A DNA stretch of 64,000 nt, from NCBI RefSeq assembly GCF_016313185.1, contig NZ_CP066218.1, forward strand, positions 496,001 through 560,000. Direction: 5' to 3'. The stretch is from Mycolicibacterium baixiangningiae (lineage in GTDB: Bacteria > Actinomycetota > Actinomycetes > Mycobacteriales > Mycobacteriaceae). A model generated the notes under the pieces. That model saw only the letters and a program-made list of their open reading frames with translations. It was not told where the DNA came from and did no database searches. Shown here piece after piece: positions 12,276-63,096 of this stretch (position 1 is the first letter of the stretch; each line of letters opens with the position of its first letter). Position numbers and translations under genes: made by a program.

Positions 12276-12929
12276 ATGCGCCGACTGTTCACCTTGCTGT
12301 GCGTGGTCGCGGTGCTCCTGGTCGCCGGGGCGCCGGCCGCACCCGCCGCCGCGCCGTGGTTCGCGTCGTCGGTCGGTGCGGCCACACAGGTGATATCCGT
12401 TGTCGGCGTGGGGGGTTCCTCGGCGAAGATGGACGTGTACCAACGCGGCGCGGCCGGTTGGCAGCCGATCGGCGTCGGAATCCCCGCATTCATCGGCGCC
12501 AAGGGGATGGCGCCGCAGACCCACGACGGCCAGATGAAGACGCCGATGGGGGTGTTCACCCTCGACTTCGCGTTCGGCACCGCCCCCAGCCCCGGCGGGG
12601 GTCTGCCCTACGTCCAGGTCGGGCCCGACCACTGGTGGGACGGCGATATGAAGAGCCCCACCTACAACACCATGCAGGTGTGCAAGAAAGACCAGTGCCG
12701 CTTCGACACGTCGCTGAGCGCAGGGACCGAGAACCTCGACATCCCGCAGTACAAGCACGCGGTGGTGATGGGGGTGAACAAGGCGCGCGTGCCCGGCAAC
12801 GGCGGCGCGTTCTTCGTGCACTCCACCGGGGGCGGACCGACCGCCGGCTGCGTGGCCATCGACGACGGCACACTGGTCGAGGTCATGCGGTGGCTGAGGC
12901 CCGGTGCGCTGATCGCGATCTCGCAGTAA
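12276..12929 (+). CDS. secreted L,D-transpeptidase-like (YkuD) protein
   Basis: This 217-residue protein has an N-terminal signal peptide (MRRLFTLLCVVAVLLVAG, Ala-rich cleavage region near 25-35) and a YkuD-like domain. The active-site block is HSTGGGPTAGC with His182 and Cys192; the usual SHGC is TAGC here, as in a subgroup of L,D-transpeptidase relatives. Upstream blocks KTPMGVF and the HWW segment fit the fold. It would act on peptidoglycan outside the membrane, but cross-linking activity is inferred. An ATG at 12267 is also possible; 12276 gives the cleaner signal peptide. Confidence 0.8.
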   Translation: MRRLFTLLCVVAVLLVAGAPAAPAAAPWFASSVGAATQVISVVGVGGSSAKMDVYQRGAAGWQPIGVGIPAFIGAKGMAPQTHDGQMKTPMGVFTLDFAFGTAPSPGGGLPYVQVGPDHWWDGDMKSPTYNTMQVCKKDQCRFDTSLSAGTENLDIPQYKHAVVMGVNKARVPGNGGAFFVHSTGGGPTAGCVAIDDGTLVEVMRWLRPGALIAISQ

Positions 12930-49690: not shown

Positions 49691-49990
49691 TTGCTGCACG
49701 CATTTGATTGGACCCACCACGCACCGACTGTCGCGGTCGCGGGGCTCTGTGGCGTCACGTTCGTCATGGTTGCCGTCGCGATGCTCGCCAGCACCGAGGG
49801 ATTCTTCGAGACCCGTGTCGCCTTCGCCCAGATGGCCGGTCTGGCATGGTTGATCGCGTACGTCGCCACCGTGCGAATGCGGCATGGATCGCTGTATCAG
49901 CTGGGCCGACGGGACGACAAATATCTTCTGGACGTGGGAGTCGCCCTGCCCGCCGGCAAGGTTGGCTCCGTTGGATCGAACGACCGGTAA
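49691..49990 (+). CDS. putative small membrane protein, possibly interrupted gene
   Basis: From TTG 49691 this frame gives 99 residues with two hydrophobic segments (APTVAVAGLCGVTFVMVAVAML and AFAQMAGLAWLIAYVATV). No good start or ribosome binding site exists; ATG 49766 would remove part of the first span. Immediately upstream the same frame (49598-49687) reads a plausible hydrophobic segment LLTLAVPGSLVVFATDASRVA and is closed by TGA at 49688. Either this is a pseudogene with a nonsense codon or the upstream part is chance. Confidence 0.35.
   Translation: MLHAFDWTHHAPTVAVAGLCGVTFVMVAVAMLASTEGFFETRVAFAQMAGLAWLIAYVATVRMRHGSLYQLGRRDDKYLLDVGVALPAGKVGSVGSNDR
49972..49987. promoter_or_regulatory. 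degenerate TCGATCG-NN-CGATCGA site before tetR at 50025
   Basis: TGGATCGAACGACCGG matches 13 of 16 positions of the cluster palindrome and ends 37 bp before the TetR ATG, between possible -35 and -10 elements (TAACAT at 49988). It suggests autoregulation. Confidence 0.45.
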
Positions 49991-50024
49991 CATGGGCCGG
50001 GACCCACAGGAAGGCAGCCCGAGT

Positions 50025-50642
50025 ATGCCACCAGCAAAGACCGCCGCGGTACCCGATACTTCCACCCGGTCCCGGATCACGGCAGCCGCCGTCGACCTGT
50101 GGTCGGAGCGCGGCTATCACGGCGCCAGTTTGCGAGATATCGCCCGTGTGGTCGGCGTCCAGATGTCAACGCTCTACCACTATCACCCCAGTAAGCAATC
50201 GCTACTTGTGGAACTCATGTCCGCGACAATGGATGAGCTCACCGAACAGGTCACCGCAGCGGTCTACTCCGCCAGGTCTACGAGGGAAAAACTTCTCGCC
50301 GGAGTTCGAGCGCACGTGATGTATCACGCTGAGCGGAGCAAAGAAATCTTCATCACGGACTCGGAGCTGAGATCACTCGAGCCGCTCGGGCGAGAGTTGA
50401 TCGTCGGCAAACGCGACGCGTATAGCCAGATGTTCGCGGTGCTCTACAAGCAAGGGGTCGCGGACGGCGACTTCGCAATCAAGGACGTGCCCGTGGCTAT
50501 GTCGGCGATGTTCGGCATGATCAACTCCGTACCGCTGTGGTACCGGCCTGAAGGCCGTCTGACATTGAGTGCCATCGCCGATTACATCGGCGAACTGGTC
50601 ATCAACGGCATCGGAGCGCCTCAGGCGAAGCAGAGTCGCTGA
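50025..50642 (+). CDS. TetR-family regulator, sister of the one at 53231
   Basis: This 205-residue TetR protein has a helix-turn-helix at about 32-62 (GYHGASLRDIARVVGVQMSTLYHYHPSKQSLL). Its ligand domain shares long blocks with the TetR at 53231 (RAHVM.H, KEI.ITD.E.RSLEP, FGM.NSV..WY.P.GR), so they are recent paralogues or two regulators of one system. ATG 50025 is chosen at the start of similarity, with AGGAAGG eleven bases upstream. It is the best candidate, with its sister, to bind the TCGATCG-NN-CGATCGA palindromes. Confidence 0.85.
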   Translation: MPPAKTAAVPDTSTRSRITAAAVDLWSERGYHGASLRDIARVVGVQMSTLYHYHPSKQSLLVELMSATMDELTEQVTAAVYSARSTREKLLAGVRAHVMYHAERSKEIFITDSELRSLEPLGRELIVGKRDAYSQMFAVLYKQGVADGDFAIKDVPVAMSAMFGMINSVPLWYRPEGRLTLSAIADYIGELVINGIGAPQAKQSR

Positions 50643-50872
50643 GTACTGCGATGTTCGGGTGATACCAAGAGTGTTCCCGGGCAGCAAGACAGCAGACCAC
50701 AACTTCGTCCAGTTCGGGCAAGTCGAGGCGTGGCGCGGCAATGAAACGTTCTCCCCTCCAGCGCATTCGAGTGACCCCGGGCGCGGTTGCTGTGCATCTC
50801 CGTCGCAGTGCCGATTAAATCGCGTCGGCGAATGTGGCTGGCCGGTAGGGAAGATCGCTTCACTCCCAGCCG

Positions 50873-50902
50873 TTGACTGAGGCGCGCGGGCCGTCGTAGG
50901 CT
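50873..50902 (+). promoter_or_regulatory. strong SigA-type promoter
   Basis: TTGACT-N18-TAGGCT, followed six bases on by ATG 50908 and by a degenerate cluster palindrome at 50915. What it transcribes is unclear. Confidence 0.5.
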
Positions 50903-50907
50903 CAGAC

Positions 50908-51297
50908 ATGCCTATCGAACGAACGATTGGGTGTTGTCAGTTGGCCGGCACCCGGAACTCGCTGTCGATGCGCTACCGACGGGGTGGATCGGAGGGACCG
51001 AGACCGGTGCAAGGGAACCGCACTGCCTCAGCGCCCACCGTCACGCGCTCGCCGTCGAACCCCTTTTCGACACGTTCGGGACTGGTGACAGTGGAGCTCT
51101 GGCTGCCCCTGCGCACCCAACCCATCACTGTCTCGCTATGGGTTCCCCGCATACGCCGCCCGCAGACACCCAGGCGTGGCAGATCCGTGTTCGGAGTGAC
51201 GCAGCCGCGTGTCCGAATCAGACCATCGGCGAACAGGTACGGCGACGGCTCGCTGGAGGGCATTGCTGCAGGCATGGGGCCCAATCTCCGCGATTGA
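50908..51297 (+). CDS. candidate leaderless open frame, unknown or decayed
   Basis: ATG 50908 starts about where transcription from the promoter at 50873-50902 should begin. The 129-residue translation is rich in Arg, Pro and Ser, has no recognised domain and does not look like a folded protein, so it may be a decayed gene kept behind a live promoter. I include it because promoter and operator are so good. Confidence 0.25.
   Translation: MPIERTIGCCQLAGTRNSLSMRYRRGGSEGPRPVQGNRTASAPTVTRSPSNPFSTRSGLVTVELWLPLRTQPITVSLWVPRIRRPQTPRRGRSVFGVTQPRVRIRPSANRYGDGSLEGIAAGMGPNLRD
50915..50930. promoter_or_regulatory. degenerate TCGATCG-NN-CGATCGA site
   Basis: TCGAACGAACGATTGG matches 13 of 16 positions and begins a few bases after the predicted transcription start of the promoter at 50873-50902. 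Confidence 0.4.
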
Positions 51298-51323
51298 CCA
51301 CCTGCCACCCGACGAGCTAGAGT
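51294..51323 (+). promoter_or_regulatory. promoter of the acuI-like/maoC operon
   Basis: TTGACC-N18-TAGAGT; the -10 overlaps the first base of a perfect cluster palindrome. The predicted leader to GTG 51576 is about 245 nt. Confidence 0.6.
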
Positions 51324-51338
51324 CGATCGAACGATCGA
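51323..51338. promoter_or_regulatory. operator palindrome TCGATCG-AA-CGATCGA
   Basis: Perfect 7+2+7 inverted repeat covering the predicted transcription start, the position for steric repression. Exact reverse complement of the site at 56442. Confidence 0.75.
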
Positions 51339-51575
51339 ATGGACACGATCAGGGGTGCGCGGCATACCCGTTCGCGTGATGCCAAGACGACCTCGAGGTC
51401 CATGCCAACGTCGAGCTCCTTAAGGCAAAGCCATCGAGACCATTCGGTTGCCCACTAACCGCCACGAATCAGCCTGTTTCCGTAACCATCACGACCATAT
51501 CGCGGGCACGAGGACCGAACCTCTCGCGCCATATCCGGGCTCCCCACGCCGCCCGCACCCAGTAAGGAGAAATAC

Positions 51576-52577
51576 GTGAGCACCACCGCCAGCTACAAGG
51601 CGTTTCAAGTTGGCAAGGACGACTCCGGCGAGTTCTATCGTGACACCCGTGAGGTCACGGCCGAACCCCTCGCAGATGGCGAGGTGCGTGTTCGCGTCGC
51701 ATGGTCGAGCATCAACTACAAGGACGGCTTGGCGTCGACCGCCGAGGGCCGAGTTGCCCGAATCTCGCCCCTCATCCCCGGGATTGACCTCGCCGGCGAA
51801 GTGGTCGACCCGGGAAGTTCTGGGCTGACCGTTGGCGACCAAGTACTCGCGCACGGGTACGAACTGGGAGTCGCCCGTCACGGTGGCTTCTCGCAGTACG
51901 CCACGGTGCCCGCTGGGTGGGTTGTTCCACGTCCGGCGGCTCTCGACGCCCGACACGCCATGGTCACCGGAACCGCAGGTTTCACCGCAGCGCTGTCGGT
52001 GGCTGCATTGCGTGACGGCGGCATCAGCCCTGACCTGGGCCCTGTCCTGGTCACCGGAGCGACCGGGGGAGTTGGCAGCTTCGCGGTAACCCTGCTTTCC
52101 AATCTCGGCTACGACGTCGTGGCAAGCACCGGTCGTCGCGACCGCGAAGACTGGCTGAAGTCTCTCGGCGCGGGAACTGTCATTGACCGACTGCCGGCCG
52201 ATGCCAAACCGCTCGGTAAGGAGACCTGGGCCGGGGTAGTCGACAGCGTTGGCGGGTCCACGCTGCATGCCGCGCTGGCGAGCACCTGCTACGGGGGCAT
52301 CGTCGCCGCCAGCGGCAACACTGGTGGACCCAAGCTCGGCACGACGGTGTTTCCCTTCATTTTGCGCGGGGTCCGGCTCCACGGCATTGATTCGGTCGCA
52401 TGTGACATCGACCGCCGCCGCACCATCTGGCACTGGATCGCTGACACCATGCACGCTCAGCAGTTCGACGCGCTGGCCGGGCGAGTCGTCGGTCTCAGCG
52501 AGCTACCTGAGGCGCTCGATGCCGTCCTGGCGGGTCGCGCGCTCGGTCGCACACTCGTTCAGCTCGAGCGGGTTTGA
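51576..52577 (+). CDS. AcuI/YhdH-type NADPH-dependent enoyl-CoA or quinone reductase
   Basis: This 333-residue zinc-free medium-chain dehydrogenase/reductase belongs to the YhdH/AcuI group: INYKDGLA, PGIDLAGEV, nucleotide motif TGATGGVGS and FILRGVRLHGIDSV. AcuI reduces acryloyl-CoA to propionyl-CoA with NADPH; other members reduce 2-enoyl thioesters or quinones. GTG 51576 has AAGGAGA six bases upstream. The MaoC-like gene follows two bases after its stop, so both are co-translated. Here it probably reduces an unsaturated CoA intermediate. Confidence 0.85.
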   Translation: MSTTASYKAFQVGKDDSGEFYRDTREVTAEPLADGEVRVRVAWSSINYKDGLASTAEGRVARISPLIPGIDLAGEVVDPGSSGLTVGDQVLAHGYELGVARHGGFSQYATVPAGWVVPRPAALDARHAMVTGTAGFTAALSVAALRDGGISPDLGPVLVTGATGGVGSFAVTLLSNLGYDVVASTGRRDREDWLKSLGAGTVIDRLPADAKPLGKETWAGVVDSVGGSTLHAALASTCYGGIVAASGNTGGPKLGTTVFPFILRGVRLHGIDSVACDIDRRRTIWHWIADTMHAQQFDALAGRVVGLSELPEALDAVLAGRALGRTLVQLERV

Positions 52578-52579
52578 CG

Positions 52580-53074
52580 ATGAGAAGGTTTCCCACCGTC
52601 ACGGCGCTCGCACAAGTAGTCGGGGAAGAGATTGGTGTCAGCGGCTGGCATACGATCACCCAAGCCGACATCGACAAGTTCGCCGACGCCACTGGCGACC
52701 ACCAGTGGATCCACGTCGACCCTCACCGCGCGAAGGACGGCCCGTTCGGCACCACCATCGCCCACGGGTACTTGACGCTCTCCCTTATCGCCGGGCTCGA
52801 AGAGCAGATCTACGTTGTCGAAGACCTCGAGATGGGCATCAACTACGGCTCCGAGCGAGTGCGCTTCCTCGAGCCGGTGCCGTCAGGTACGCGGGTCCGC
52901 ATGCGCGCGGAGCTCCTCAGCGCCGAGTCTGCACCGACGGGATTGCGCACCGTCATCAAAGCAACGGTCGAGATCGAGGGAAGCGCCAAACCGGCGTGCG
53001 TCGCAGAGGTCGTGTCGATCTTGGTTCCACGCGAAGACGGCACCGCTCGTGCACGAGCCGGCGGTGTCCACTAA
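52580..53074 (+). CDS. MaoC-like (R)-specific enoyl-CoA hydratase
   Basis: This 164-residue hot-dog-fold hydratase has the catalytic Asp/His motif FADATGDHQWIHVDP with PFGTTIAHGYLTLSL, as in NodN/MaoC hydratases of mycobacteria. It would add water to a trans-2-enoyl-CoA. ATG 52580 stands two bases after the stop of the reductase gene. Together with two crotonases in the cluster, it gives three possible hydration activities, so one may act on a branched or ring intermediate. Confidence 0.85.
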   Translation: MRRFPTVTALAQVVGEEIGVSGWHTITQADIDKFADATGDHQWIHVDPHRAKDGPFGTTIAHGYLTLSLIAGLEEQIYVVEDLEMGINYGSERVRFLEPVPSGTRVRMRAELLSAESAPTGLRTVIKATVEIEGSAKPACVAEVVSILVPREDGTARARAGGVH

Positions 53075-53230
53075 CGACATGACAGCTCATCTGTCTCCGG
53101 AAGCTCTGCGCCATAACGCCTTTGCCACTTCCGGCCGGAGACTGAACGCCCTGTCAGCGCGCGAGCAGGACCGCAGTCGGGGACGGCCACACATGGTGGC
53201 CGGCCGACCCACGACAGCTTGCCCTTGTCG

Positions 53231-53923
53231 ATGACAGCAAACGAAACGACGGCACCCGGCCCGGGCGCTCGCGAAACCGCCAGGCGAGCAGGCGACACTT
53301 CCAAAGGAACCGGAGCAAGCGTGCGGTTGGCTTGTGTCGACTTACTCTTCGAGCGGGGTTTTCACGGAACGTCGTTGCGCCACATCGCCGATACTGTCGG
53401 GGTTCAGATGTCCACGCTGTACTACTACTATCCCAGCAAGCAGGCCGTCCTGGTCGATATCGCTGAATCCACGCTAACGGAACTCATCGACCTCGTCGGC
53501 GCCGCAGTAGCGCAACATGAGTCACCCGCAGATCAGTTGAGGGCAACAATCCGTGCCCACGTCATGTTCCACGGCCGGCGTCGCAAAGAGATACTCATCA
53601 CCGACACCGAAATCCGCTCCTTGGAACCGGATCCACGCAGAAGGATCATCGGACTGCGCGACGCGTACACGAGGCTGTTCTGCGCCGTCCTCGATGCGGG
53701 GAAGAAATCAGGGGAGTTCTCCTTCCAGGACCGTTCCGTCACTGGAAACGCCTTGTTCGGGATGACGAACAGCGTCGCGACCTGGTACGACCCTCACGGC
53801 CGGTGCGATCTCAGTGATATCGCCGACAGCCTGTCGGCTACATTTCTTCACGGTATCGCCAACGACCGAGGACGGCACCGTAGTGGTTCGCCGCAACGTC
53901 GATCAGATGCGGCGAACCAATGA
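53231..53923 (+). CDS. TetR-family regulator, sister of the one at 50025
   Basis: This 230-residue TetR protein has a helix-turn-helix at about 48-78 (GFHGTSLRHIADTVGVQMSTLYYYYPSKQAVL). The recognition helix is nearly identical to that of the TetR at 50025, so both may read the same DNA sequence. The C-terminus ends in a short basic tail. I see no cluster palindrome directly upstream, so it may be constitutive or read from the acuI-maoC transcript. A heterodimer or two-signal control is possible. Confidence 0.85.
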   Translation: MTANETTAPGPGARETARRAGDTSKGTGASVRLACVDLLFERGFHGTSLRHIADTVGVQMSTLYYYYPSKQAVLVDIAESTLTELIDLVGAAVAQHESPADQLRATIRAHVMFHGRRRKEILITDTEIRSLEPDPRRRIIGLRDAYTRLFCAVLDAGKKSGEFSFQDRSVTGNALFGMTNSVATWYDPHGRCDLSDIADSLSATFLHGIANDRGRHRSGSPQRRSDAANQ

Positions 53924-53959
53924 TCGAGGGCACTAGTTCTCGTGTTGATTGGAGTGTGA

Positions 53960-54391
53960 ATGACGTTGTACGAGTTGCCAGTCACTGGTGCGGTTTTCGA
54001 TCATGTGGCGATCGCCGCGCCGCGGATCGCAGATCTGACACCGCTCTACATCGAAGTGCTGGGCGGCCAGATCATCTACACCGGTGAAGACGATCCCGAC
54101 TACGGCTTTCGGGTAATCCACGTAGGTTTCAAGGACGGAACCAAAGTCGAATTGATGGAGCCCTCAACGCAATCGACGTTCTTCGACTCCTTCTTCCGTC
54201 GAAACCCCGAGGGCGGACTCCACCACGTGACGTTTCTGGTCGATGACGTCAACGTGGCCGCGGCGGCCTGCTCAGCGGCCGGCTACCAAGTCTTCGGAGT
54301 GCGCAGGCAATCCGGTTGGAACGAGTGCTTTCTACATCCGCGGAGCACGTGCGGCACACTCGTGCAGCTCGCCGACATGGCCACGTCGTAG
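53960..54391 (+). CDS. VOC-superfamily protein, methylmalonyl-CoA epimerase-like
   Basis: This 143-residue vicinal-oxygen-chelate protein has two paired beta-alpha-beta units. Metal ligands are likely His in FDHVAIA, Glu in VELMEP, His in LHHVTFLVDD, and Gln in GTLVQLAD where epimerases usually have Glu. Members epimerise methylmalonyl-CoA or open and isomerise ring compounds. GGAGTG precedes ATG 53960. Its place in a CoA cluster fits an epimerase of a branched acyl-CoA. Confidence 0.75.
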   Translation: MTLYELPVTGAVFDHVAIAAPRIADLTPLYIEVLGGQIIYTGEDDPDYGFRVIHVGFKDGTKVELMEPSTQSTFFDSFFRRNPEGGLHHVTFLVDDVNVAAAACSAAGYQVFGVRRQSGWNECFLHPRSTCGTLVQLADMATS

Positions 54392-54730
54392 ATTGTCAGA
54401 GGCCGGCTACGCCTCAGCCGCTGCGCCGGTAGTGAGGTGAAGACTGCGCCGTACTCGCATGCGCAGCCGCGAATGCCCCGTACGCTGCCTGGTGCCGGCG
54501 CCGATGAGGTCGCATCGTCTCGATCGGCTGGGCGCGACGATGTTCCACTCGCCTCACGGACGCACGTATGGACCACTGGTCCAGCGCACTGAACGCCGAG
54601 TTCAACCAGTGCGCGACGGGCGACTACTCGATCCGGCCCGGCGCTGGCGTCGTTGGCAGACACGTGAGCCGGATACGAGTAGCCGCCCGTGGCGCTGGAC
54701 GCACCAGCGCCACTGCGAAAGGCGGTCCAG
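54392..54730. other. 339-bp gap between convergent genes
   Basis: Lies between the VOC gene and the end of the crotonase operon. I find no gene, repeat or clear hairpin. Confidence 0.5.
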
Positions 54731-55564
54731 CTATGCGGTTGTCCCGTAACGCTTGTCGCGCCACTTCAAGGCTGCGCCGAGACCATCCTGTTCGACGATG
54801 CGGAAGAACTCCGCGCCCTCTTCGGTGACGGCCTTGTTGAGGATGGCCGATAGATCAAGATTCGCCTGGACTCCCTGGCGCAGGCCCATTGACTCGTACG
54901 CTCGGAGCAGGCCCAGCTTGGTAAACTTCAGGATTGGCAGCGGCGTCGGGACGATCTTTGCTGCGAGCTCGTTGACCGCCTTCTGCAGCTCATCATCGGC
55001 CACGACACGATTCACCAATCCCATGTCCTTGGCCTGTGAGGCGGTGAACGAGTCACCGGTGAAGAAGATCTCGTTGGATAGCTTCTGGCCGACCATGTAC
55101 GGCAATAGCAGAGTGACTGGCCCGGAGCCGTAACGGATCTCGGGCATGCCGAACTGGGCGCGCTCGCTGGCGACGACGATGTCACATGCGAGGACAGTGT
55201 CGAATCCGCCGGCGAGGCACCATCCGTCCACCGCAGCGATCGTCGGCTTAGCCAAGCCCCACAACTGCATCGTAAGAGCGGCCTCAGCGGACAGGTAATG
55301 ATGAGCAGTGGCGGCGTCGGGTGAGGCGACGACCGAGCTGTTGGCGATGTCGTAGCCGGCCGAAAAGTTCCCGCCGGCACCGGTGATCACCACCACCCGG
55401 ACATCGTCGTCCGCCTCCGCCTGCCGCAACGCGTCACCCAGAGAGGTGATCACCGCCTTGTTGATGGCGTTCAGTTTCCGTGGTCGGTTCAGCGTGATGG
55501 TCGCGATGTGGTTGCTGACGTCGACGAGGACCGCGTTCTCGTCGACGGCTAGTTGCGTGGTCAT
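54731..55564 (-). CDS. enoyl-CoA hydratase/isomerase (crotonase)
   Basis: This 277-residue crotonase has oxyanion-hole regions GGNFSAGYDIAN and AVDGWCLAGGFDTVLACD and a Glu in MPEIRYG; the second catalytic Glu of true hydratases is not evident, so isomerase or other crotonase chemistry is possible. AAAGG six bases before ATG 55564. It follows the BadI-like gene by 21 bp and shares its operator at 56442. Candidate for the ring-enoyl-CoA hydratase (BadK-like) step. Confidence 0.85.
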   Translation of the reverse strand: MTTQLAVDENAVLVDVSNHIATITLNRPRKLNAINKAVITSLGDALRQAEADDDVRVVVITGAGGNFSAGYDIANSSVVASPDAATAHHYLSAEAALTMQLWGLAKPTIAAVDGWCLAGGFDTVLACDIVVASERAQFGMPEIRYGSGPVTLLLPYMVGQKLSNEIFFTGDSFTASQAKDMGLVNRVVADDELQKAVNELAAKIVPTPLPILKFTKLGLLRAYESMGLRQGVQANLDLSAILNKAVTEEGAEFFRIVEQDGLGAALKWRDKRYGTTA

Positions 55565-55585
55565 GTTTTGCCTTTTCTCGGTTGA

Positions 55586-56383
55586 TCAGCGTCGGTAAGG
55601 CGCGTAGTCGACCGGTCGCTTCTCGTTGAAGGCACGGTTACCTTCTGTCGCTTCATCTGTCATCTGGTAGAGCTCCAGAGCAGCAAAAGCCATCGCGGAG
55701 GTGCCTGTGGCACTCGCGGTGTCGGAATTGAACGAGTGCTTCAGGAACCGAATGGCCGTCGGGCTCTTCTCCACGATTTCTGCAGCCCACGCGCGCGCTT
55801 CATCCATCAGGCTTTCGAGCGGCACGACCTTGTTCACCAGGTTCATGTCCAGTGCTTCTTGTGCGCTGTATCGACGGCACAGGTACCACATTTCGCGGGC
55901 ACGCTTTTCACCGACGACACGCGCGAGATAGATGGTCCCCAAGCCCGCATCGAAACTGCCAACCTTCGGCCCGACCTGGCCGAAGATTGCGTTCTCGGAC
56001 GCGATACTCAGGTCGCAGAGCACGTGCAGTACGTGGCCGCCCCCAATCGCGTATCCGTTCACCGCAGCGATGACAGGCTTGCCCGCGCCTCGGATTGCGG
56101 CATGAAGATCTTGGTCGCGTGCCAGCTCACCGGTCTCTACGTCCCGCTCCTGGCCGGTGTGTTGACGCTCTTTTTGATCGCCACCCGCGGAGAAGGCTCG
56201 ATCGCCGGCGCCCGTCAAGATGATGGCACCGACACGGGGATCGCTGTCAGCAAGTCGGAATGCGCTGATCAGCTCATTGACTGTCTTGACACGGAAGGCG
56301 TTGAGTACCTCCGGCCGATTGATGGTGATCGTCGCGATTCCGTCTGAGACGTCATACAGCACGTCATCGAAGTTCGGGGCCAT
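55586..56383 (-). CDS. BadI/MenB-type crotonase (ring-cleaving hydrolase candidate)
   Basis: This 265-residue crotonase has GAGDRAFSAGGDQ (58-70), GYAIGGGHVLHVLCDL, FGQVGPKVGSFDAGLGT (134-150), REMWYLCRRYSAQEA and the end EGNRAFNEKRPVDYAPY. These blocks are shared by BadI (2-ketocyclohexanecarboxyl-CoA hydrolase) and MenB; REMWYxCxRYS is closer to BadI as I recall it. BadI opens a beta-keto ring thioester by a retro-Claisen reaction. No menaquinone gene is near and the context is catabolic, so BadI-like chemistry is favoured. ATG 56383 has AAAGG five bases upstream; a GTG precedes it. Confidence 0.82.
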   Translation of the reverse strand: MAPNFDDVLYDVSDGIATITINRPEVLNAFRVKTVNELISAFRLADSDPRVGAIILTGAGDRAFSAGGDQKERQHTGQERDVETGELARDQDLHAAIRGAGKPVIAAVNGYAIGGGHVLHVLCDLSIASENAIFGQVGPKVGSFDAGLGTIYLARVVGEKRAREMWYLCRRYSAQEALDMNLVNKVVPLESLMDEARAWAAEIVEKSPTAIRFLKHSFNSDTASATGTSAMAFAALELYQMTDEATEGNRAFNEKRPVDYAPYRR

Positions 56384-56441
56384 CACAGCCTTTCTTGGTC
56401 TGTCGCCGGCTTTCGCCTGGTCGGAGCGTACGTTCTATCAT

Positions 56442-56457
56442 TCGATCGTTCGATCGA
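56442..56457. promoter_or_regulatory. operator palindrome TCGATCG-TT-CGATCGA
   Basis: Perfect 7+2+7 inverted repeat four bases downstream of the -10 box of the minus-strand crotonase operon; reverse complement of the 51323 site. Confidence 0.75.
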
Positions 56458-56461
56458 CCCC

Positions 56462-56491
56462 ATAGTGCACGGCGCTTGCGGCAAGTGTCAA
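56462..56491 (-). promoter_or_regulatory. promoter of the BadI-like/crotonase operon
   Basis: TTGACA-N18-CACTAT on the minus strand, directly followed by the operator at 56442-56457. The spacer carries CTTGC-G-GCAAG (56475-56485), a second possible protein-binding palindrome. Confidence 0.6.
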
Positions 56492-56740
56492 CCAAGTGAT
56501 GGGGCTTCTACGTGGCCGTCTTGTTCGGATCGACCGGGAGTCGCGGAGGCGATGCAGACCCCAGGTGCTGATCCGGCAGAGCACGCCCGCGCGAAGCGCT
56601 GGCCGTTACTGCCCGCGGGGTCGGGCGATCATTGCGATGGCTCGAGCTCGGAATTGGGACGAACACGACGCGCGCGCACCGGCCTGGAAAGAGGCCCAGG
56701 GCGACGCGCGGAGGGAGGCGGGCGCCGCAACCCCTGCTTG

Positions 56741-56769
56741 TTGACCGGTCTTTTGCAGGCGGTTACAGT
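56741..56769 (+). promoter_or_regulatory. promoter of the acyl-CoA dehydrogenase operon
   Basis: TTGACC-N17-TACAGT; the operator palindrome starts five bases after the -10. Predicted start near 56776, leader about 150 nt. Confidence 0.62.
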
Positions 56770-56774
56770 ATCCA

Positions 56775-56790
56775 TCGATCGCTCGATCGA
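56775..56790. promoter_or_regulatory. operator palindrome TCGATCG-CT-CGATCGA
   Basis: Perfect 7+2+7 inverted repeat over the predicted transcription start of the dehydrogenase operon. Confidence 0.75.
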
Positions 56791-56924
56791 GAGCGGAAGG
56801 GTCAGGGGCGCCCACCGACAGGGTGACCCCGCCGGATCCGGTCTGACAAATGCGCAATCGCAGTTGGAGCCGTCGGTCGACACTCAACTGAGGCGTCCAT
56901 GGAACAAGTGGAAGGAATGGGCGG

Positions 56925-58091
56925 ATGCAATTCGAACTGAGCGAGGAGCAGCTAGAGCTCCAGCGGTCCATCCGAGCCTTCGTCGAAAGGTATGCGAGTC
57001 CGCTCGACGTGCTATCCCAGATTGAGAGCGACGCCGGGTTCAGCAAGGAGCTGTGGAACGCGGCCGCCGCGAAGCTCGGGCTGCAAAGCCTGAACGTGCC
57101 CGAAGACTTCGGTGGCATGGGCGCAAGCAACCTCGAACTAATGGCAGCGATCGAAGAGCTCGGCGCGGGCGCCGTGCCCGGCCCACTGGCTCCGTGTATC
57201 GGGCTGGCGGTGCCCATCCTCGACGCGGCCAAGACCTCGCCGTTGGCCGCCCAGCTACTGGGCTCCATCGCGGACGGCACGGAAATCGTAGCGGTGGCTC
57301 CAGACATTTTCGATGGCCACCAGGGGCGACCGAGTGTCGAAGCAACTGAAGACGACCAGGGAAAGGTGCGGCTGAACGGGACCGCGCATCGGATCCTGAC
57401 CCCGCAACATGCGACCACCTTGCTCGTGCTGGCCGGAATCGGCGAGAGCGTCGCCGTGGTGGCCGCCCCCGCCGATGCACTCGGTGTGCGCCTCAAAATG
57501 CACGCAATGTTGGACCCGACCCGCCGCGAGGGCGATGTCGAGTTCTCCGACGTGCGCGCGCGCGTGGTCGTCAGGGGCGATGACGCTACTGCCGTGAGCC
57601 GAACAGCGCGTCGATACGCGCTGCTGTTCGCCGCCGCAGAGGCAGTCGGCGGTGCACAGCGCGCGCTTGACCTCTCGGTGCAGTACGCCAAGGAGCGCAA
57701 GGCGTTCGGCAAGGTCATCGGCACCTTCCAAGCGCTGAAGCACCGGATGGCCGACATGTACACCGAACTGGAGATCTCCCGGTCGTTGCTGTGGTATGCG
57801 GCATGGTTGTCTACGCAGGAATCTGCCTCTGTTGATGACGTGGAATCGACATTGCTCGAAGCAAAGCTGGTCGCCACGGAAAGCTATCTTCAGTCCACGC
57901 GATCCGCGATCAGCATCTTCGGTGGGATCGGATACACCTGGGAACACCCGATCCACCTTTACTTCAAGCGTGCGACGAGCCTGCGGTACTTCGGTCAGAG
58001 CAACGATTCGATTCGCGACGAGATTGCTTCCCGCACGTTCGCCAGCAGGCGACGTAATTCGGAAGCCGCACGCCAGAACGCCCACTCGTAA
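56925..58091 (+). CDS. acyl-CoA dehydrogenase, first of an adjacent pair
   Basis: This 388-residue FAD acyl-CoA dehydrogenase has the N-terminal helical domain with LNVPEDFGGMGASNLE, a divergent middle domain lacking the usual FAD-contact loop (no CxTEPxAGSD), and a C-terminal domain with RKAFGKVIGTFQALKH and FGGIGYTWEHPIHLYFKR, where the Glu in TWEHP is the likely catalytic base. The next gene encodes a dehydrogenase with the complementary motifs, as in heterotetrameric FadE pairs of steroid catabolism. It heads the operon behind the operator at 56775. Confidence 0.87.
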   Translation: MQFELSEEQLELQRSIRAFVERYASPLDVLSQIESDAGFSKELWNAAAAKLGLQSLNVPEDFGGMGASNLELMAAIEELGAGAVPGPLAPCIGLAVPILDAAKTSPLAAQLLGSIADGTEIVAVAPDIFDGHQGRPSVEATEDDQGKVRLNGTAHRILTPQHATTLLVLAGIGESVAVVAAPADALGVRLKMHAMLDPTRREGDVEFSDVRARVVVRGDDATAVSRTARRYALLFAAAEAVGGAQRALDLSVQYAKERKAFGKVIGTFQALKHRMADMYTELEISRSLLWYAAWLSTQESASVDDVESTLLEAKLVATESYLQSTRSAISIFGGIGYTWEHPIHLYFKRATSLRYFGQSNDSIRDEIASRTFASRRRNSEAARQNAHS

Positions 58092-58100
58092 AGGACCGAC

Positions 58101-59309
58101 ATGGATATCACCTTCAGCGCAGAAGCCGAGGCGTACCGCGAACAGGTGCGCGAATTCCTGAAAGACAACGTCCCGCAAGATTGGCGCGGGATCGGCGCTC
58201 TCGCCGGCGACACGCACACATCGTTCCTCAAGGACTGGACAGCGCTGCTGTCGAAGCACAAGCTGCTCGCGCCGGCATGGCCCACGGAGTACGGCGGCGC
58301 GGGTCTGAGCCCGGAGGAACGCGTCGTCCTGGCCGAAGAATTCGCCCTGGCGGGCGTTCCCACCGGGGACGCGAACGACGAATTTTCCGTGGACATGCTC
58401 GGAAACACACTGCTCGAGCACGGCACACCCGAGCAGAAGGATTACTTCCTGCCGCGAATCCTGAGCAAAGAGATCGTGTTCTGTCAGGGATTCTCGGAGC
58501 CCGACGCCGGCTCGGACCTGTCGAATGTCCGGACGAAGGCCACCTTGGAGGGCGACCACTGGGTGGTCGACGGCCAGAAGATCTGGACGTCCGACGGGTT
58601 GAAGGCGAACTGGATCTTCGCCCTGGTCCGTACTGAACCGGGCAGCGTTCGCCACCATGGCCTCACGATGATGCTGATTCCCATCGACCAGCCGGGCGTC
58701 GAGTTGCGGCCGATCAAGATGATCACAGGCGACAGCGAATTCTGCGAGACCTTCTTCACGCAGGCGGTCACCGAGCGGGGCCACGTCGTCGGCGAGGTCG
58801 GCGACGGCTGGAAAGTTGCGATGAGTCTGCTCGGACACGAGCGTGGCGAAACCGCTGTGGTGCTGCCGCTACGCTTTTCGGCCGAGCTGGATCGCCTGGT
58901 GGCGCTCATCGACGAACGGGGTCTTTCCGATGATCCGAAGGTCCGTGTGGGCGTCGCCGAGTGCCAGGCGCGCCTCAGTGCCATGCGTCTTCTGGGTCTG
59001 CGGAACGTCAGCAGCTGGGTGAAAGGCATGCAGCCCGGGCCGGAGAGTTCTATCGCCAAGCTGGTCTGGTCCGAGTACCACGTGCAGTCCTCGACGCTGG
59101 GAATGGAAGTCCTAGGCAGTGATGGTCTGGTCGCCGAAGGCAGGCCGGGCCCGGCCTACTATTCCGACGAGCCCGGCGCCGATCCCCTGCACACAGCGTC
59201 CTGGCAGACAACGTATTTCACGGCGCTCGGTAGCGTGATCTATGGGGGCACCAGCGAAATCCAGCGCAACATCGTCGCCGAGCGCGTGCTCGGACTGCCG
59301 AGGAGCTAG
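58101..59309 (+). CDS. acyl-CoA dehydrogenase, second of an adjacent pair
   Basis: This 402-residue acyl-CoA dehydrogenase has the complete FAD/substrate loop FCQGFSEPDAGSDLSNVRTKA, KIWTSDGLKANW and the C-terminal YGGTSEIQRNIVAERVLGLPR. Mycobacterial pairs of this sort form alpha2beta2 enzymes that desaturate bulky or ring-bearing acyl-CoAs. It begins nine bases after the first dehydrogenase gene. The CoA synthetase gene starts one base after its stop. Confidence 0.88.
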   Translation: MDITFSAEAEAYREQVREFLKDNVPQDWRGIGALAGDTHTSFLKDWTALLSKHKLLAPAWPTEYGGAGLSPEERVVLAEEFALAGVPTGDANDEFSVDMLGNTLLEHGTPEQKDYFLPRILSKEIVFCQGFSEPDAGSDLSNVRTKATLEGDHWVVDGQKIWTSDGLKANWIFALVRTEPGSVRHHGLTMMLIPIDQPGVELRPIKMITGDSEFCETFFTQAVTERGHVVGEVGDGWKVAMSLLGHERGETAVVLPLRFSAELDRLVALIDERGLSDDPKVRVGVAECQARLSAMRLLGLRNVSSWVKGMQPGPESSIAKLVWSEYHVQSSTLGMEVLGSDGLVAEGRPGPAYYSDEPGADPLHTASWQTTYFTALGSVIYGGTSEIQRNIVAERVLGLPRS

Positions 59310-59310
59310 C

Positions 59311-61404
59311 GTGGTCCATTCCGCCCGTCCAGAGCTGCATCCCGACTTGAAGTGCATCTTCGATCCGGCGTCGGTCGCCGTTGTCGGCGCTTCCTCGGAC
59401 ACCAACAAGTGGGGTGGCCAGCTGGCGCGCGGCGCACTGGTGGGTGAGAAGCGCCGGCCCGTCTACTTCGTCAGCGCGTCTCGCGACGAGGTACACGGCC
59501 GCCCCGCGGTCCGGTCACTGAGCGAGCTGCCCGAGGTGCCCGAACTCGTCGCGCTTGCCGTGCCCCTCAACGCCTTCGAGGGTGTCGTCGGCGAGGCACT
59601 CGACCTGGGCGTTCGCGCGCTGATCGCCGTCAATGCCGGTTTCGCCGAAGCCGGCATTGACGGCCGGCGGCGTCAAGACGACGTCGTCGATCGGCTCCGT
59701 GCCGCCGGAGCGGTGATGGTGGGCCCGAACTGCCTCGGTGTACTCGACCGGCACACCGACCTTGATCTGGTGTACGACCAGGCGGGGCCGGCTGGCATTC
59801 CGGCCGGACCTGTCACCGTGATCTCTCAGAGCGGCAATGTAGGGCTCGAGCTTGTGTTCGGGTTGCGGTCGCGCGGCATAGGCACTGCACGTTTCGTCTC
59901 GGTGGGCAATCAGGCAGACCTGGACATCGGGCACTTCGTCGAGGCGGCGATCACACAGGACGAGACCGAGGTCATCGTGATCTACGCCGAAGAGTTCCGG
60001 CGTGCGCGAAGGCTGCTCAGCGCCATGCGGAAGGCCGGGGCAGCAGGCAAACCTGTCGTCCTGGTGACCCCTCGGGGTGAAGCGGCCGCCCGGGCAGCTC
60101 AGTCACATACCGGGGCCATGGCGTCCAACGCGGCGGTGATTGCAGCCGCGTGCCGCGACGCCGGCGTCATTCTCGCTGACACGTTGGTTGAGGCCTTGGA
60201 CTGCGCCGACATCTTGGTCCGCCAGCCCAGAACGATCGGCCGGCGAGTGGGCGTCATCAGCGACGGCGGCGGGCACTCCGTGCTCGCGTGCGACGCCCTC
60301 GGCGAAAGTAACTTCGAGATCGTCCCCTTCAGTGCGACCTTGCAGACAAAATTGACTGAAGTACTCGACCCTTCGTCATATGTGGCCAATCCAATTGATC
60401 TTGCGGCGGCCAATATTCGAGTAAATGCCTTTGATGACGCTGCCACGGCGGTGGCGGCAAGCGGTGAAGTCGATGTTCTGGTCGTCACCGGTGGGCTGGG
60501 GGCGTTCACCGCTATCGATCCTGCGCTCGAACCGGCCGAGATCGAATCGGTCCACACGATCGGCCAGGTCGCCCAGAAGCACACGCTTCCGCTGATCGTC
60601 CACAGCATGTTCGCCGACTCCGCTGGTGTGGTGATGGAACGCGTTCGCCAGTCGGGCGCCTCGGTGTTCTCCGACTTGGCTGACGGTGTAGTAGCGCTCG
60701 ACAAGGTCCTCGCTGCCCGCGCGACACCGACGCGAGAACTCGCAGTCGACGTGGCGGGTGGGTGTTCGCACGAGCCGGTGACGGGATACTTCCCGGCGCG
60801 GCGTGCGCTCGCTGCCCGCGGAGTGGACTTCGTCGAGGCCGAGCAGGTCCGAACCGCTGAGGAAGCCGTCGTTGCCGCACGTACGATCGGTTATCCCGTC
60901 GTGCTGAAAGCCGTCGACCTGCTTCATAAGTCAGATATGGGCGGGGTCCAGCTCAACATTTCCTCTGATGTCGAGCTGGCGGCGGCCTTTACTTCGATGC
61001 GCGCCGCTACCGGCTCTCAGGAGTATTCGGTGGAATCGATGATCAGTCCGGGGGACAGTGTCGAACTGATCGTCGGCGCTCGGCGCGATCCGGTGTTCGG
61101 CCCCCTCATTATGGTGGGTCTGGGCGGAATCTACGCCGAAATCCTCCGCGACACCGCGCTCACGCTGGCCCCCGCCTCGGCCGACCACGTTGCCGATCTG
61201 TTGCGCTCACTCAACGCTGCGGCGCTGCTACAAGGGGCCAGGGGCAAGGCGCCAGCTGACATCGATGCAGCCGCTCGGGCGGCCGTGGCCGCGGCTGAGT
61301 TGCTGATGTCAAGCGAAGAGATCACCGATGTGGAGATCAATCCGTTGCGGGTCACCGCTGAGGGTGCCCTAGCGCTGGACGCGCGCGTCATCACCGGTGC
61401 CTAA
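59311..61404 (+). CDS. ADP-forming acyl-CoA synthetase (acetate-CoA ligase-like)
   Basis: This 697-residue NDP-forming acyl-CoA synthetase fuses alpha and beta parts. It has a CoA-binding domain with VVGASSDTNKWGG (from about residue 20), succinyl-CoA-ligase-like domains with phospho-His266 in SHTGAMA, and a C-terminal ATP-grasp domain (about 480-697) ending VEINPLRV. It activates a carboxylic acid with CoA and ATP, giving ADP instead of AMP. GTG 59311 directly follows the dehydrogenase stop. It is the only CoA ligase in the cluster and so the likely entry step. Confidence 0.87.
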   Translation: MVHSARPELHPDLKCIFDPASVAVVGASSDTNKWGGQLARGALVGEKRRPVYFVSASRDEVHGRPAVRSLSELPEVPELVALAVPLNAFEGVVGEALDLGVRALIAVNAGFAEAGIDGRRRQDDVVDRLRAAGAVMVGPNCLGVLDRHTDLDLVYDQAGPAGIPAGPVTVISQSGNVGLELVFGLRSRGIGTARFVSVGNQADLDIGHFVEAAITQDETEVIVIYAEEFRRARRLLSAMRKAGAAGKPVVLVTPRGEAAARAAQSHTGAMASNAAVIAAACRDAGVILADTLVEALDCADILVRQPRTIGRRVGVISDGGGHSVLACDALGESNFEIVPFSATLQTKLTEVLDPSSYVANPIDLAAANIRVNAFDDAATAVAASGEVDVLVVTGGLGAFTAIDPALEPAEIESVHTIGQVAQKHTLPLIVHSMFADSAGVVMERVRQSGASVFSDLADGVVALDKVLAARATPTRELAVDVAGGCSHEPVTGYFPARRALAARGVDFVEAEQVRTAEEAVVAARTIGYPVVLKAVDLLHKSDMGGVQLNISSDVELAAAFTSMRAATGSQEYSVESMISPGDSVELIVGARRDPVFGPLIMVGLGGIYAEILRDTALTLAPASADHVADLLRSLNAAALLQGARGKAPADIDAAARAAVAAAELLMSSEEITDVEINPLRVTAEGALALDARVITGA

Positions 61405-61420
61405 AAGACACACGGCGGCC

Positions 61421-61451
61421 ACCGCCCGACGCGCCACAGCAGTCGGGCGGT
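61421..61451 (+). terminator. hairpin after the acyl-CoA synthetase gene
   Basis: ACCGCCCGAC and GTCGGGCGGT arms (perfect 10-bp stem) with an 11-base loop lie 17 bp after the stop. The following bases are only moderately T-rich. Confidence 0.6.
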
Positions 61452-61545
61452 TCCGTCGTTCCGGCGTCGCGTGAGCGCCCGCAGGGATGAAAACGACTGA
61501 ACCGCAAGCGTTAACAGACTGGTAACCGTCGGCACGTCATTCCTC

Positions 61546-61574
61546 TTGTGTGACGGACACGACTCCGATAGTGT
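61546..61574 (+). promoter_or_regulatory. candidate promoter of the APC permease gene
   Basis: TTGTGT-N17-TAGTGT; the operator begins one base after the -10. The -35 is imperfect. Confidence 0.45.
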
Positions 61575-61575
61575 C

Positions 61576-61591
61576 CCGATCGAACGATCGA
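61576..61591. promoter_or_regulatory. operator palindrome CCGATCG-AA-CGATCGA
   Basis: One mismatch from the perfect cluster palindrome, 26 bp before the permease ATG and directly after its -10 box. Confidence 0.7.
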
Positions 61592-61617: not shown

Positions 61618-63096
61618 ATGGAGTTCGTCATGGAGCATTCCAACGACGATTCAGCTCACGAGCTCAAAACAGGTTTGAAGCAGCGCCACTTGACGATGCT
61701 CTCGCTCGGCGGTGTCATCGGCGCGGCCCTGCTTGTGGGGTCAAGCGGGATCATCCACGCCGCGGGTCCACTGGCATTCGTGACCTATGCCGCCACCGGA
61801 CTCATTGTCTTGATGGTCATGCGGATGCTGGGTGAGATGGCCGCTGCCAAGCCGCGTTCCGGTGGTTTCGCGGACTACAACCGGATGGGCCTTGGCGCAT
61901 GGGGCGGGTTCTCGACAGGTTGGCTGTATTGGATGTTTTGGGTCATCGTGGTGGGCTTCGAAGCAGTCGTCGGGGGCCAGATGGTCAACAGCTGGCTGCC
62001 GCAGATACCGGTCTGGGTGGCGGGTTTGGTATTTCTCGCCGTCTTGACCGGGGTGAATCTGCTCTCGGTGGGCAGCTTCGGCGAGGCGGAGTTCTGGTTC
62101 GCCGGGATCAAGGTTGTCGCGATCGTCGCGTTCATCACGATTGCGTCGCTGGTGGCGCTTGGTCTGTGGCCCGGTACCACGATGGACTTCTCCAACCTCA
62201 CCGAACACGGCGGTGTGCTGCCTAACGGCCCGGGTGCCCTGTTGGCCGGGGTCGGCGTTGTCATCTTCGCGATGACCGGTGCCGAGGTAGCCACCATCGC
62301 TGCAGCCGAAACAACCGATCCCGCAAAGGCGATTCGCAAGGCGGTCCTGTCGATTGTGGTCCGGATCATTGCCTTCTTCGTGTTGTCGACGTTGCTGATC
62401 GTCATTGTGCTGCCGTGGACGAGTATCGTTCCCGGCGAATCTCCGTTCGTCGCGGTGTTGGACCACATCGGGGTCCCTGGAACCGCCCTCATGCTCAACT
62501 TTGTGGTACTTGTCGCTGCCCTGTCCGTTCTGAATGCCGGCATGTATACGTGCTCGAGGATGCTGTTCGTCATGGCTCGCCAAGGTGATGCTCCGAAGTG
62601 GATGAGCGAGACTGACTCTCGGGGCGTGCCGGTGAAGGGCACCCTCGCCTGTGCGGCCGGCGGATGCGTGGGCATTCTTCTGGCCGCGCTGTACCCCGAC
62701 ACGGTATTTATGTTCCTTCTCAACGCTTCTGGTGCGCTGGTCCTGTTCGTGTACTTACTCATCTGCATCGCCCAGTACCGCCTTCGCCGCAAATGGGAAC
62801 GAGAAGAGCCGGAGATTTTGACGTTCCGGGTATGGCTGTTTCCTGCGACGACGATTCTGGTCGGGCTGGCGATCGTCGGCGTGCTCATCAGCATGGCGGT
62901 GCGACCGGAATCCCGCATCGAGATCCTCAGCAGCCTGACGATCTGGGCGGTAATCTGCGTCGCCTATCTCGTGAAGTGCCTCCGCGGCCGTCGCAACAAC
63001 TCGGTTTCCGATGATTCAGAGCCTGCCGTCGGGGTGGCCCCAGATGCGCCCGTCGTCGTCGGTGATGCGCCGACTTCGGAAAAGGCTTCCGGATAG
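61618..63096 (+). CDS. APC-superfamily amino acid/amine permease
   Basis: This 492-residue transporter has 12 hydrophobic segments and the family N-terminus LKQRHLTMLSLGGVIGAALLVGSSG with the unwound TM1 motif, plus PAKAIRKAV after TM6 as in GABA/aromatic/basic amino acid permeases. It should import a cationic or zwitterionic compound with protons. AAGGG eight bases before ATG 61618; ATG 61630 is a possible alternative. It carries the cluster operator and so probably imports the substrate of the pathway, which would then contain an amino or related group. Confidence 0.85.
   Translation: MEFVMEHSNDDSAHELKTGLKQRHLTMLSLGGVIGAALLVGSSGIIHAAGPLAFVTYAATGLIVLMVMRMLGEMAAAKPRSGGFADYNRMGLGAWGGFSTGWLYWMFWVIVVGFEAVVGGQMVNSWLPQIPVWVAGLVFLAVLTGVNLLSVGSFGEAEFWFAGIKVVAIVAFITIASLVALGLWPGTTMDFSNLTEHGGVLPNGPGALLAGVGVVIFAMTGAEVATIAAAETTDPAKAIRKAVLSIVVRIIAFFVLSTLLIVIVLPWTSIVPGESPFVAVLDHIGVPGTALMLNFVVLVAALSVLNAGMYTCSRMLFVMARQGDAPKWMSETDSRGVPVKGTLACAAGGCVGILLAALYPDTVFMFLLNASGALVLFVYLLICIAQYRLRRKWEREEPEILTFRVWLFPATTILVGLAIVGVLISMAVRPESRIEILSSLTIWAVICVAYLVKCLRGRRNNSVSDDSEPAVGVAPDAPVVVGDAPTSEKASG

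Follow-up and report, generated by a model that had tools for sequence, protein, structure and literature searches.

Genes of the bad-ali type are regulated in Aromatoleum and R. palustris by BadR, a MarR family protein that is released by CHC-CoA and has the operator CAAN4TTG (PMC9795900). Gram-positive bad-ali or chcpca clusters, as in Rhodococcus, carry TetR-like genes (PMC9795900, PMC5906575), for which the relevant section and passages of PMC9795900 name no operator. In T. thermophilus, a phenylacetate-type cluster is associated with TTHA0973, a member of the TetR family (PMC6651687). EchA20, a crotonase of the MenB clade, opens a ring by a reverse Dieckmann reaction in steroid catabolism (PMC5380842). 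Here we describe a cluster of related enzymes with two TetR genes and a recurrent palindrome as its candidate operator; no prior description of this operator was found in passages and sections of the open-licence PMC literature.

The window, the whole 64,000-nucleotide stretch of DNA that was analysed, comprised bases 496001-560000 of the one-contig 6.18-Mb genome of Mycolicibacterium baixiangningiae. Among solved structures, a 606-residue RpoB fragment of this genome scored highest against 5tw1, the RNA polymerase of M. smegmatis (1278 bits; next groups 1254 and 1069), with few alignment differences, consistent with a non-tuberculous mycobacterium. A preliminary description had listed six copies of a 16-letter palindrome, TCGATCG-NN-CGATCGA, and all six were located. 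The sites and genes in question are given below in window positions, with distances measured to presumed start codons.

49972..49987, palindrome with three mismatches, 53 bp before the TetR1 start, TAACAT box downstream with a poor -35; proposed autoregulatory site
50025..50642, plus strand, TetR1, 205 aa, PF00440 and PF17932
50915..50930, palindrome with three mismatches, TAGGCT box ending 12 nt upstream, no gene assigned
51294..51323, plus strand, promoter-like TTGACC-N18-TAGAGT, from promoter scan and box inspection
51323..51338, perfect palindrome, its first letter coinciding with the final base of the -10 TAGAGT, 253 bp before the AcuI-like gene
51576..52577, plus strand, YhdH/AcuI (acrylyl-CoA reductase family) enzyme, TIGR02823 at 395.8 bits (cut-off 297)
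52574..53074, plus strand, MaoC-like dehydratase
53231..53923, plus strand, TetR2, PF00440
53960..54391, plus strand, VOC protein, methylmalonyl-CoA-epimerase-like, below cut-off
54731..55564, minus strand, enoyl-CoA hydratase (ECHa)
55586..56386, minus strand, BadI/MenB-like crotonase, scoring under both cut-offs
56442..56457, perfect palindrome, 4 nt after the CACTAT of a minus-strand TTGACA-N18-CACTAT
56741..56769, plus strand, promoter-like TTGACC-N17-TACAGT, from promoter scan and box inspection
56775..56790, perfect palindrome, 5 nt after the TACAGT -10 box, 150 bp to the start codon
56925..58091, plus strand, acyl-CoA dehydrogenase, IpdE2/PimD-like, below cut-offs
58101..59309, plus strand, acyl-CoA dehydrogenase, PimC-like, below cut-off
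59242..61404, plus strand, ATP-grasp acyl-CoA synthetase of the ADP-forming type, which probably starts further in
61576..61591, palindrome with one mismatch, TAGTGT 1 nt before it with a poor -35, 42 bp before the permease start
61618..63096, plus strand, amino-acid permease, GABA-permease-like, below cut-off
L006:6196-6211, window-equivalent 66196, just past the window end, palindrome with one mismatch before a minus-strand thiolase
L006:6432-6447, window-equivalent 66432, just past the window end, palindrome with one mismatch before an SDR/BadH-like/thiolase/acyl-CoA dehydrogenase run

Behind the site at 51323 lay a unit of the AcuI-like reductase, the MaoC-like dehydratase, TetR2 and the VOC protein, all in the same direction, and behind 56442, on the opposite strand, ECHa and the BadI/MenB-like crotonase. 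The site at 56775 was followed by the two acyl-CoA dehydrogenases (PimC/PimD/IpdE2-like) and the ATP-grasp CoA ligase, and that at 61576 by the GABA-permease-like transporter. Beyond the window, 66196 stood at the minus-strand thiolase and 66432 at an SDR, a BadH-like SDR, a thiolase and an acyl-CoA dehydrogenase, with an ECH and a second AcuI-like enzyme still further past the window. The interval of ~930 bp that separates TetR1 from the AcuI-like gene (50643..51575) had no assigned gene, its ORFs being outside the domain search, and the unit downstream of 51323 would carry a leader of ~250 bp.

From its gene content, the cluster probably breaks down ring-shaped acids, an assignment at class level because the BadI, BadH, PimC, PimD, IpdE2 and GABA-permease models all scored below their curated cut-offs. 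The crotonase reached 326.7 bits against the BadI equivalog model (cut-off 467.6) and 351.1 of 380 and 319.6 of 342.7 bits against the MenB models, and the BadH-like SDR reached 243.9 bits against the BadH equivalog (cut-off 431.2), nonetheless its top-scoring model. Ring opening by EchA20, as far as the passages of PMC5380842 describe it, fits a similar role for the BadI/MenB-like crotonase. The 120 BadI homologues listed of 7874 were BadI/MenB-like and added no information on the regulon. Past the cluster, L006:13404-19959 encoded a SurE-like protein, two more amino-acid permeases and two PhyH-type dioxygenases.

TetR1 and TetR2 were 47% identical and had the recognition helix VQMSTLY in common. 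The helix was also present in P0007 of R. pyridinivorans (43% identical). Both passed the PF00440 (TetR_N helix-turn-helix) cut-off of 24 bits (TetR1 54.3, TetR2 42.5) and the all-helical TetR fold was found, and neither reached the NCBIfam models for FadR (Bacillus equivalog; 73.3 and 71.4 bits, cut-off 200) or KstR (36.7 and 23.6 bits, cut-off 280). Among solved structures, the TetR1 model was closest to 3him, AibR, PfmR and KstR2, and the structure of AibR has been solved with isovaleryl-CoA and operator DNA. Judging from the sites, their confinement to the cluster, their overlap with promoters and their pairing with one helix type, all read from the DNA itself, we consider it very probable that TetR1 (50025) and TetR2 (53231), the two TetR repressors of the cluster, use the palindrome as their operator. 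We infer that a dimer of either would read the core ATCG-NN-CGAT via the shared VQMSTLY helix and, when bound at the -10 box or immediately downstream of it, would block RNA polymerase. TetR2, downstream of the site at 51323, would repress itself, and TetR1, behind that at 49972, would probably do the same. After uptake and activation of the substrate, the repressor would be released by the binding of an acyl-CoA intermediate, probably a ring-acid CoA thioester, to its C-terminal domain, so that uptake, CoA ligation, ring dehydrogenation, BadI/BadH-like ring opening and beta-oxidation would be switched on.

Relatives of the regulators were sought with an 11-sequence alignment in one genome from each of 84,980 species, and the best 80 of 265 relatives were analysed together with four later loci, taking one best TetR match per locus. 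Conservation beside related TetR genes followed the helix type: among these 84 loci, a perfect copy lay near the TetR gene in 5/8 with a QM helix vs 0/76 others, with the same counts for perfect or one-mismatch copies (Fisher 1.8e-6, a value that ignores relatedness; two loci with helices unreadable by pattern were counted as non-QM). Copies with two mismatches were near the TetR gene in 6/8 QM loci vs 2/76 others (L066 and L079), and counting them anywhere in the locus discriminated less (7/8 vs 18/76). In L010-L013, L015 and L016, the palindrome lay a short way upstream of the TetR gene, downstream of it, or on both sides. As the TetRs of L010-L013 were 97-100% identical and L011 and L016 were in one genome, the five perfect QM loci represent about two independent lineages. 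Two-mismatch sites preceded the TetR gene in L015 and a BadH homologue in L014, where a site beside the TetR gene was absent; L017, also of QM type (LQMASLY), had no good site. No copy was found beside the TetR genes of the four later genomes, with helices VQTSSLY, IQPAAIY, IQAGTLY and VRPASLY. In some uncultured bacteria that are only distantly related, a repressor of this kind accompanies the same palindrome. Dyads before TetR genes of the Bradyrhizobium, Magnetospirillum, Rhodococcus and Nocardioides groups included no variant of the motif among the matches listed. In seven of eight Bradyrhizobium-group loci (L018-L021, L023, L024, L026), an AAACG-N6-CGTTT dyad was situated 158-184 bp before the TetR start; it is a possible candidate operator of that group's TetR, and conservation alone may explain it because these sequences are related.

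TetR1 was detected at E <=1e-36 in 1/397 genomes of the order and 5/396 of the phylum, this genome being counted in both, and at E <=1e-30 in 2/61 relatives, namely this genome and one from another family at 37% identity. The BadI-like protein was found at E <=1e-110 in 1/198 genus genomes, the present one. The cluster is therefore accessory. A plasmid collection yielded seven records, at most 36.6% identical. An unlinked transcription factor might instead bind the palindrome while both TetRs act elsewhere, and the weakness of the site upstream of TetR1 would agree with this. We regard it as unlikely, since the palindrome tracks the TetR gene and helix type across distant genomes, and since TetR1 and the cluster were absent together from the other genus genomes searched.

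The position of the sites relative to promoters bears on how the proposed operator would act. The preliminary description had a site directly following a -10 box in five cases, which was evident at 51323, 56442 and 56775 and weak at 61576; it did not stand at 50915, where the best -10-like box is 12 nt off. At 66432, a TTGACG-N18-TAGTCT overlapped the site, and at 66196 convincing promoter boxes were absent. Sites were 30-92 bp from the start codon, except at 56775 (150) and 51323 (253). The promoter scanner returned three candidates in 12.5 kb vs 1.7 expected, two of the three being those of 51323 and 56775. Behind the TetR gene of all five loci L010-L013 and L016, the palindrome exactly filled the 17-bp spacer of a sigma-70-like promoter, TTGAC[AG]...TAG[AG]GT, which is good anatomical evidence for repression. 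It is very unlikely that the TetRs bind the site but, with the promoter left unblocked, activate transcription or obstruct it as a roadblock once it has started: some TetR-family proteins do activate (FasR is an activator according to its NCBIfam model name), 56775 sits 5 nt past its box and 66196 is without clear boxes, but the sites lie across the -10 box or close behind it, and in the five MAG loci with a filled spacer a bound dimer would exclude RNA polymerase.

Perfect copies of the motif numbered three in the 6.18-Mb genome, every one inside the cluster. Allowing one mismatch gave 14 places, six of which were at 547323-562447 (~15 kb), each upstream of genes: window positions 51323, 56442, 56775 and 61576 and window-equivalents 66196 and 66432. 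The remaining eight, fetched with 2 kb per side, were all within open frames, with a third-position GC in frame of at least 0.77 at seven and an ambiguous 0.74 at L094. For randomly distributed places, the chance of at least 6/14 in one given 15-kb stretch was near 1e-12 by hand calculation, a nominal figure as the stretch was picked afterwards. With A/T at the centre and up to two mismatches, the window had five matches (56771 and 56775 overlap) vs 0.22 expected, a number reached in 0/100 shuffles, and in a motif-free count GATCG-N2-CGATC ranked first among the 231 distinct dyads present in the cluster, with five occurrences there and none in the rest of 80 kb. A reversed-word control at up to two mismatches (6 vs 127) was set aside because the reversed word has a different composition. 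Across 18 sites (seven from this genome and 11 hand-picked from MAG loci so as to keep duplicates few), the inner CG-N2-CG never varied, the flanking T/A and A/T hardly did, and A/T was favoured at the centre, a conservation that is partly circular because the motif served to find the sites.

At up to three mismatches, the window had 15 matches vs 9.87 expected, and 8/100 shuffles reached 15. Three-mismatch copies were rejected as a class and, such copies being near chance level, neither 49972 nor 50915 counts on its own. We found no support for 50915 as an operator, a chance-level match with its best -10-like box 12 nt away; 49972 was retained only because L010-L013, L015 and L016 have a site shortly before the TetR gene. 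The claim that the motif occurs only at or near promoters fails at up to three mismatches, where 3272 and 25654 were far outside the cluster and 60515 was inside the ligase gene. The motif was not scattered randomly and frequently over the genome: perfect copies lay in the cluster alone, and in four MAG genomes solely on contigs with a related gene set. The earlier reading as a regulon was supported, and the set is larger than first proposed, by 66196 and 66432.

Exact copies occurred in 56/198 genus genomes including this one, mostly as a single copy and elsewhere in at most three (G498, across three contigs; G537, in one overlapping run). An AA/TT centre was found in this genome only, among all listed exact places of the 198, and exact copies in the others were not grouped in a gene cluster among the matches listed. 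The view that a CG-rich word simply recurred by chance in a high-GC genome, for which perfect copies in 55/197 other genus genomes and near-expectation three-mismatch copies could be cited, can be dismissed, being contradicted by the genome-wide distribution with 6/14 near-perfect places within 15 kb, by the dyad count, the shuffles and the listed genus copies, unclustered and without AA/TT centre, and by the same palindrome adjoining related regulators.

In the MAG bins, for which the isolate names suggest a lake origin, all ten perfect places in G569-G572 were on contigs with TetR-BadH genes or a closely similar demethylase-unit promoter. G573 and G574 had no perfect places, and G575, home of L017, had two on contigs without matches to cluster proteins. 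BadH homologues (63-71%) were encoded in seven of L010-L017, being absent from L015, and ECHc homologues (38-49%) in all eight; L016 additionally encoded BadI (79%) and ECHa (70%) homologues. Pfam searches of MAG genes covered L016, L011 and L133, with L132 and L134 left out. Sites were located upstream of a GCV_T-type demethylase and formyl-THF deformylase (L133, L016, L011), a PotD/PotB/PotA-like (polyamine-type) ABC importer (L133) and an APC permease (L016), as well as before the TetR gene and its downstream neighbour (an ECH in L016, an amidohydrolase in L011). The palindromes before the demethylase, importer and permease genes were as follows.

L133:6773 and 12793-12816, palindromes before these genes
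L016:2056 and 2174, palindromes before these genes
L011:1871-2021, palindromes before these genes

An intervening run in L016 of an OYE-type flavoenzyme, BadH homologue, PaaK-like ligase and ECH had no copy with up to three mismatches at its head; the L014 site immediately precedes BadH. These demethylase, importer and permease sites, with the GABA-permease-like gene in the window, are the basis for a tentative suggestion, which we hold at low confidence, that this is an unrecognised actinobacterial-type regulon serving a methylated and/or amino-bearing ring acid and not plain cyclohexanecarboxylate; an N- or O-methylated alicyclic or reduced heterocyclic acid would be an example. If so, having two paralogous repressors for one operator would place the same promoters under the control of two different CoA intermediates. 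Away from cluster genes, L135:9001-9040 (G570:C71) contained a short tandem run of TCGATCGT units, like repeated half-sites.

Counting against the operator reading are the few MAG lineages, L014 and L017, L066 and L079, the weak TetR1 site, and the box-poor sites at 61576 and 66196. The locus offers a concrete candidate operator, target gene set and putative recognition-helix rule for one TetR group of bad-ali-like clusters, with which the regulon would be readable in other genomes and the co-regulated genes would point to the substrate. Both repressors are candidate sensors for ring-acid CoA; this is otherwise an ordinary local repressor regulon.

Like the bad-ali/chcpca clusters of Rhodococcus, the cluster has BadI-/BadH-like genes, acyl-CoA dehydrogenases and TetR genes together, and the cluster of Rhodococcus BCP1 likewise contains two tetR-like genes; the passages of these sources give no operator for the chcpca TetRs, whereas one is proposed here (PMC9795900, PMC5906575). 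The Rhodococcus TetR loci that we fetched, which may or may not encode chcpca regulators, had the helix [ILF]TVASIY and no palindrome with up to one mismatch near TetR. BadR serves the same kind of pathway and, as described in PMC9795900, is a repressor released by a ring-acid CoA, but it is a MarR protein with a CAAN4TTG operator, whereas the two regulators found in this cluster, among ORFs with a Pfam match, were TetR proteins and not of MarR type. The homology-derived site of TTHA0973, CNAACGNNCGTTNG, has the CG-N2-CG layout in common with the palindrome but the half-site AACG instead of ATCG, and its selection-derived consensus, AACnAACGTTnGTT, differs further (PMC6651687); the 18 sites compared here were mostly TCGATCG and not the CNAACG half-site of TTHA0973 type. 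AibR, PfmR, KstR2 and FadR have the same fold as TetR1 over nearly the whole chain at 24-28% identity over the aligned chain, and AibR and B. subtilis FadR have been solved with acyl-CoA.
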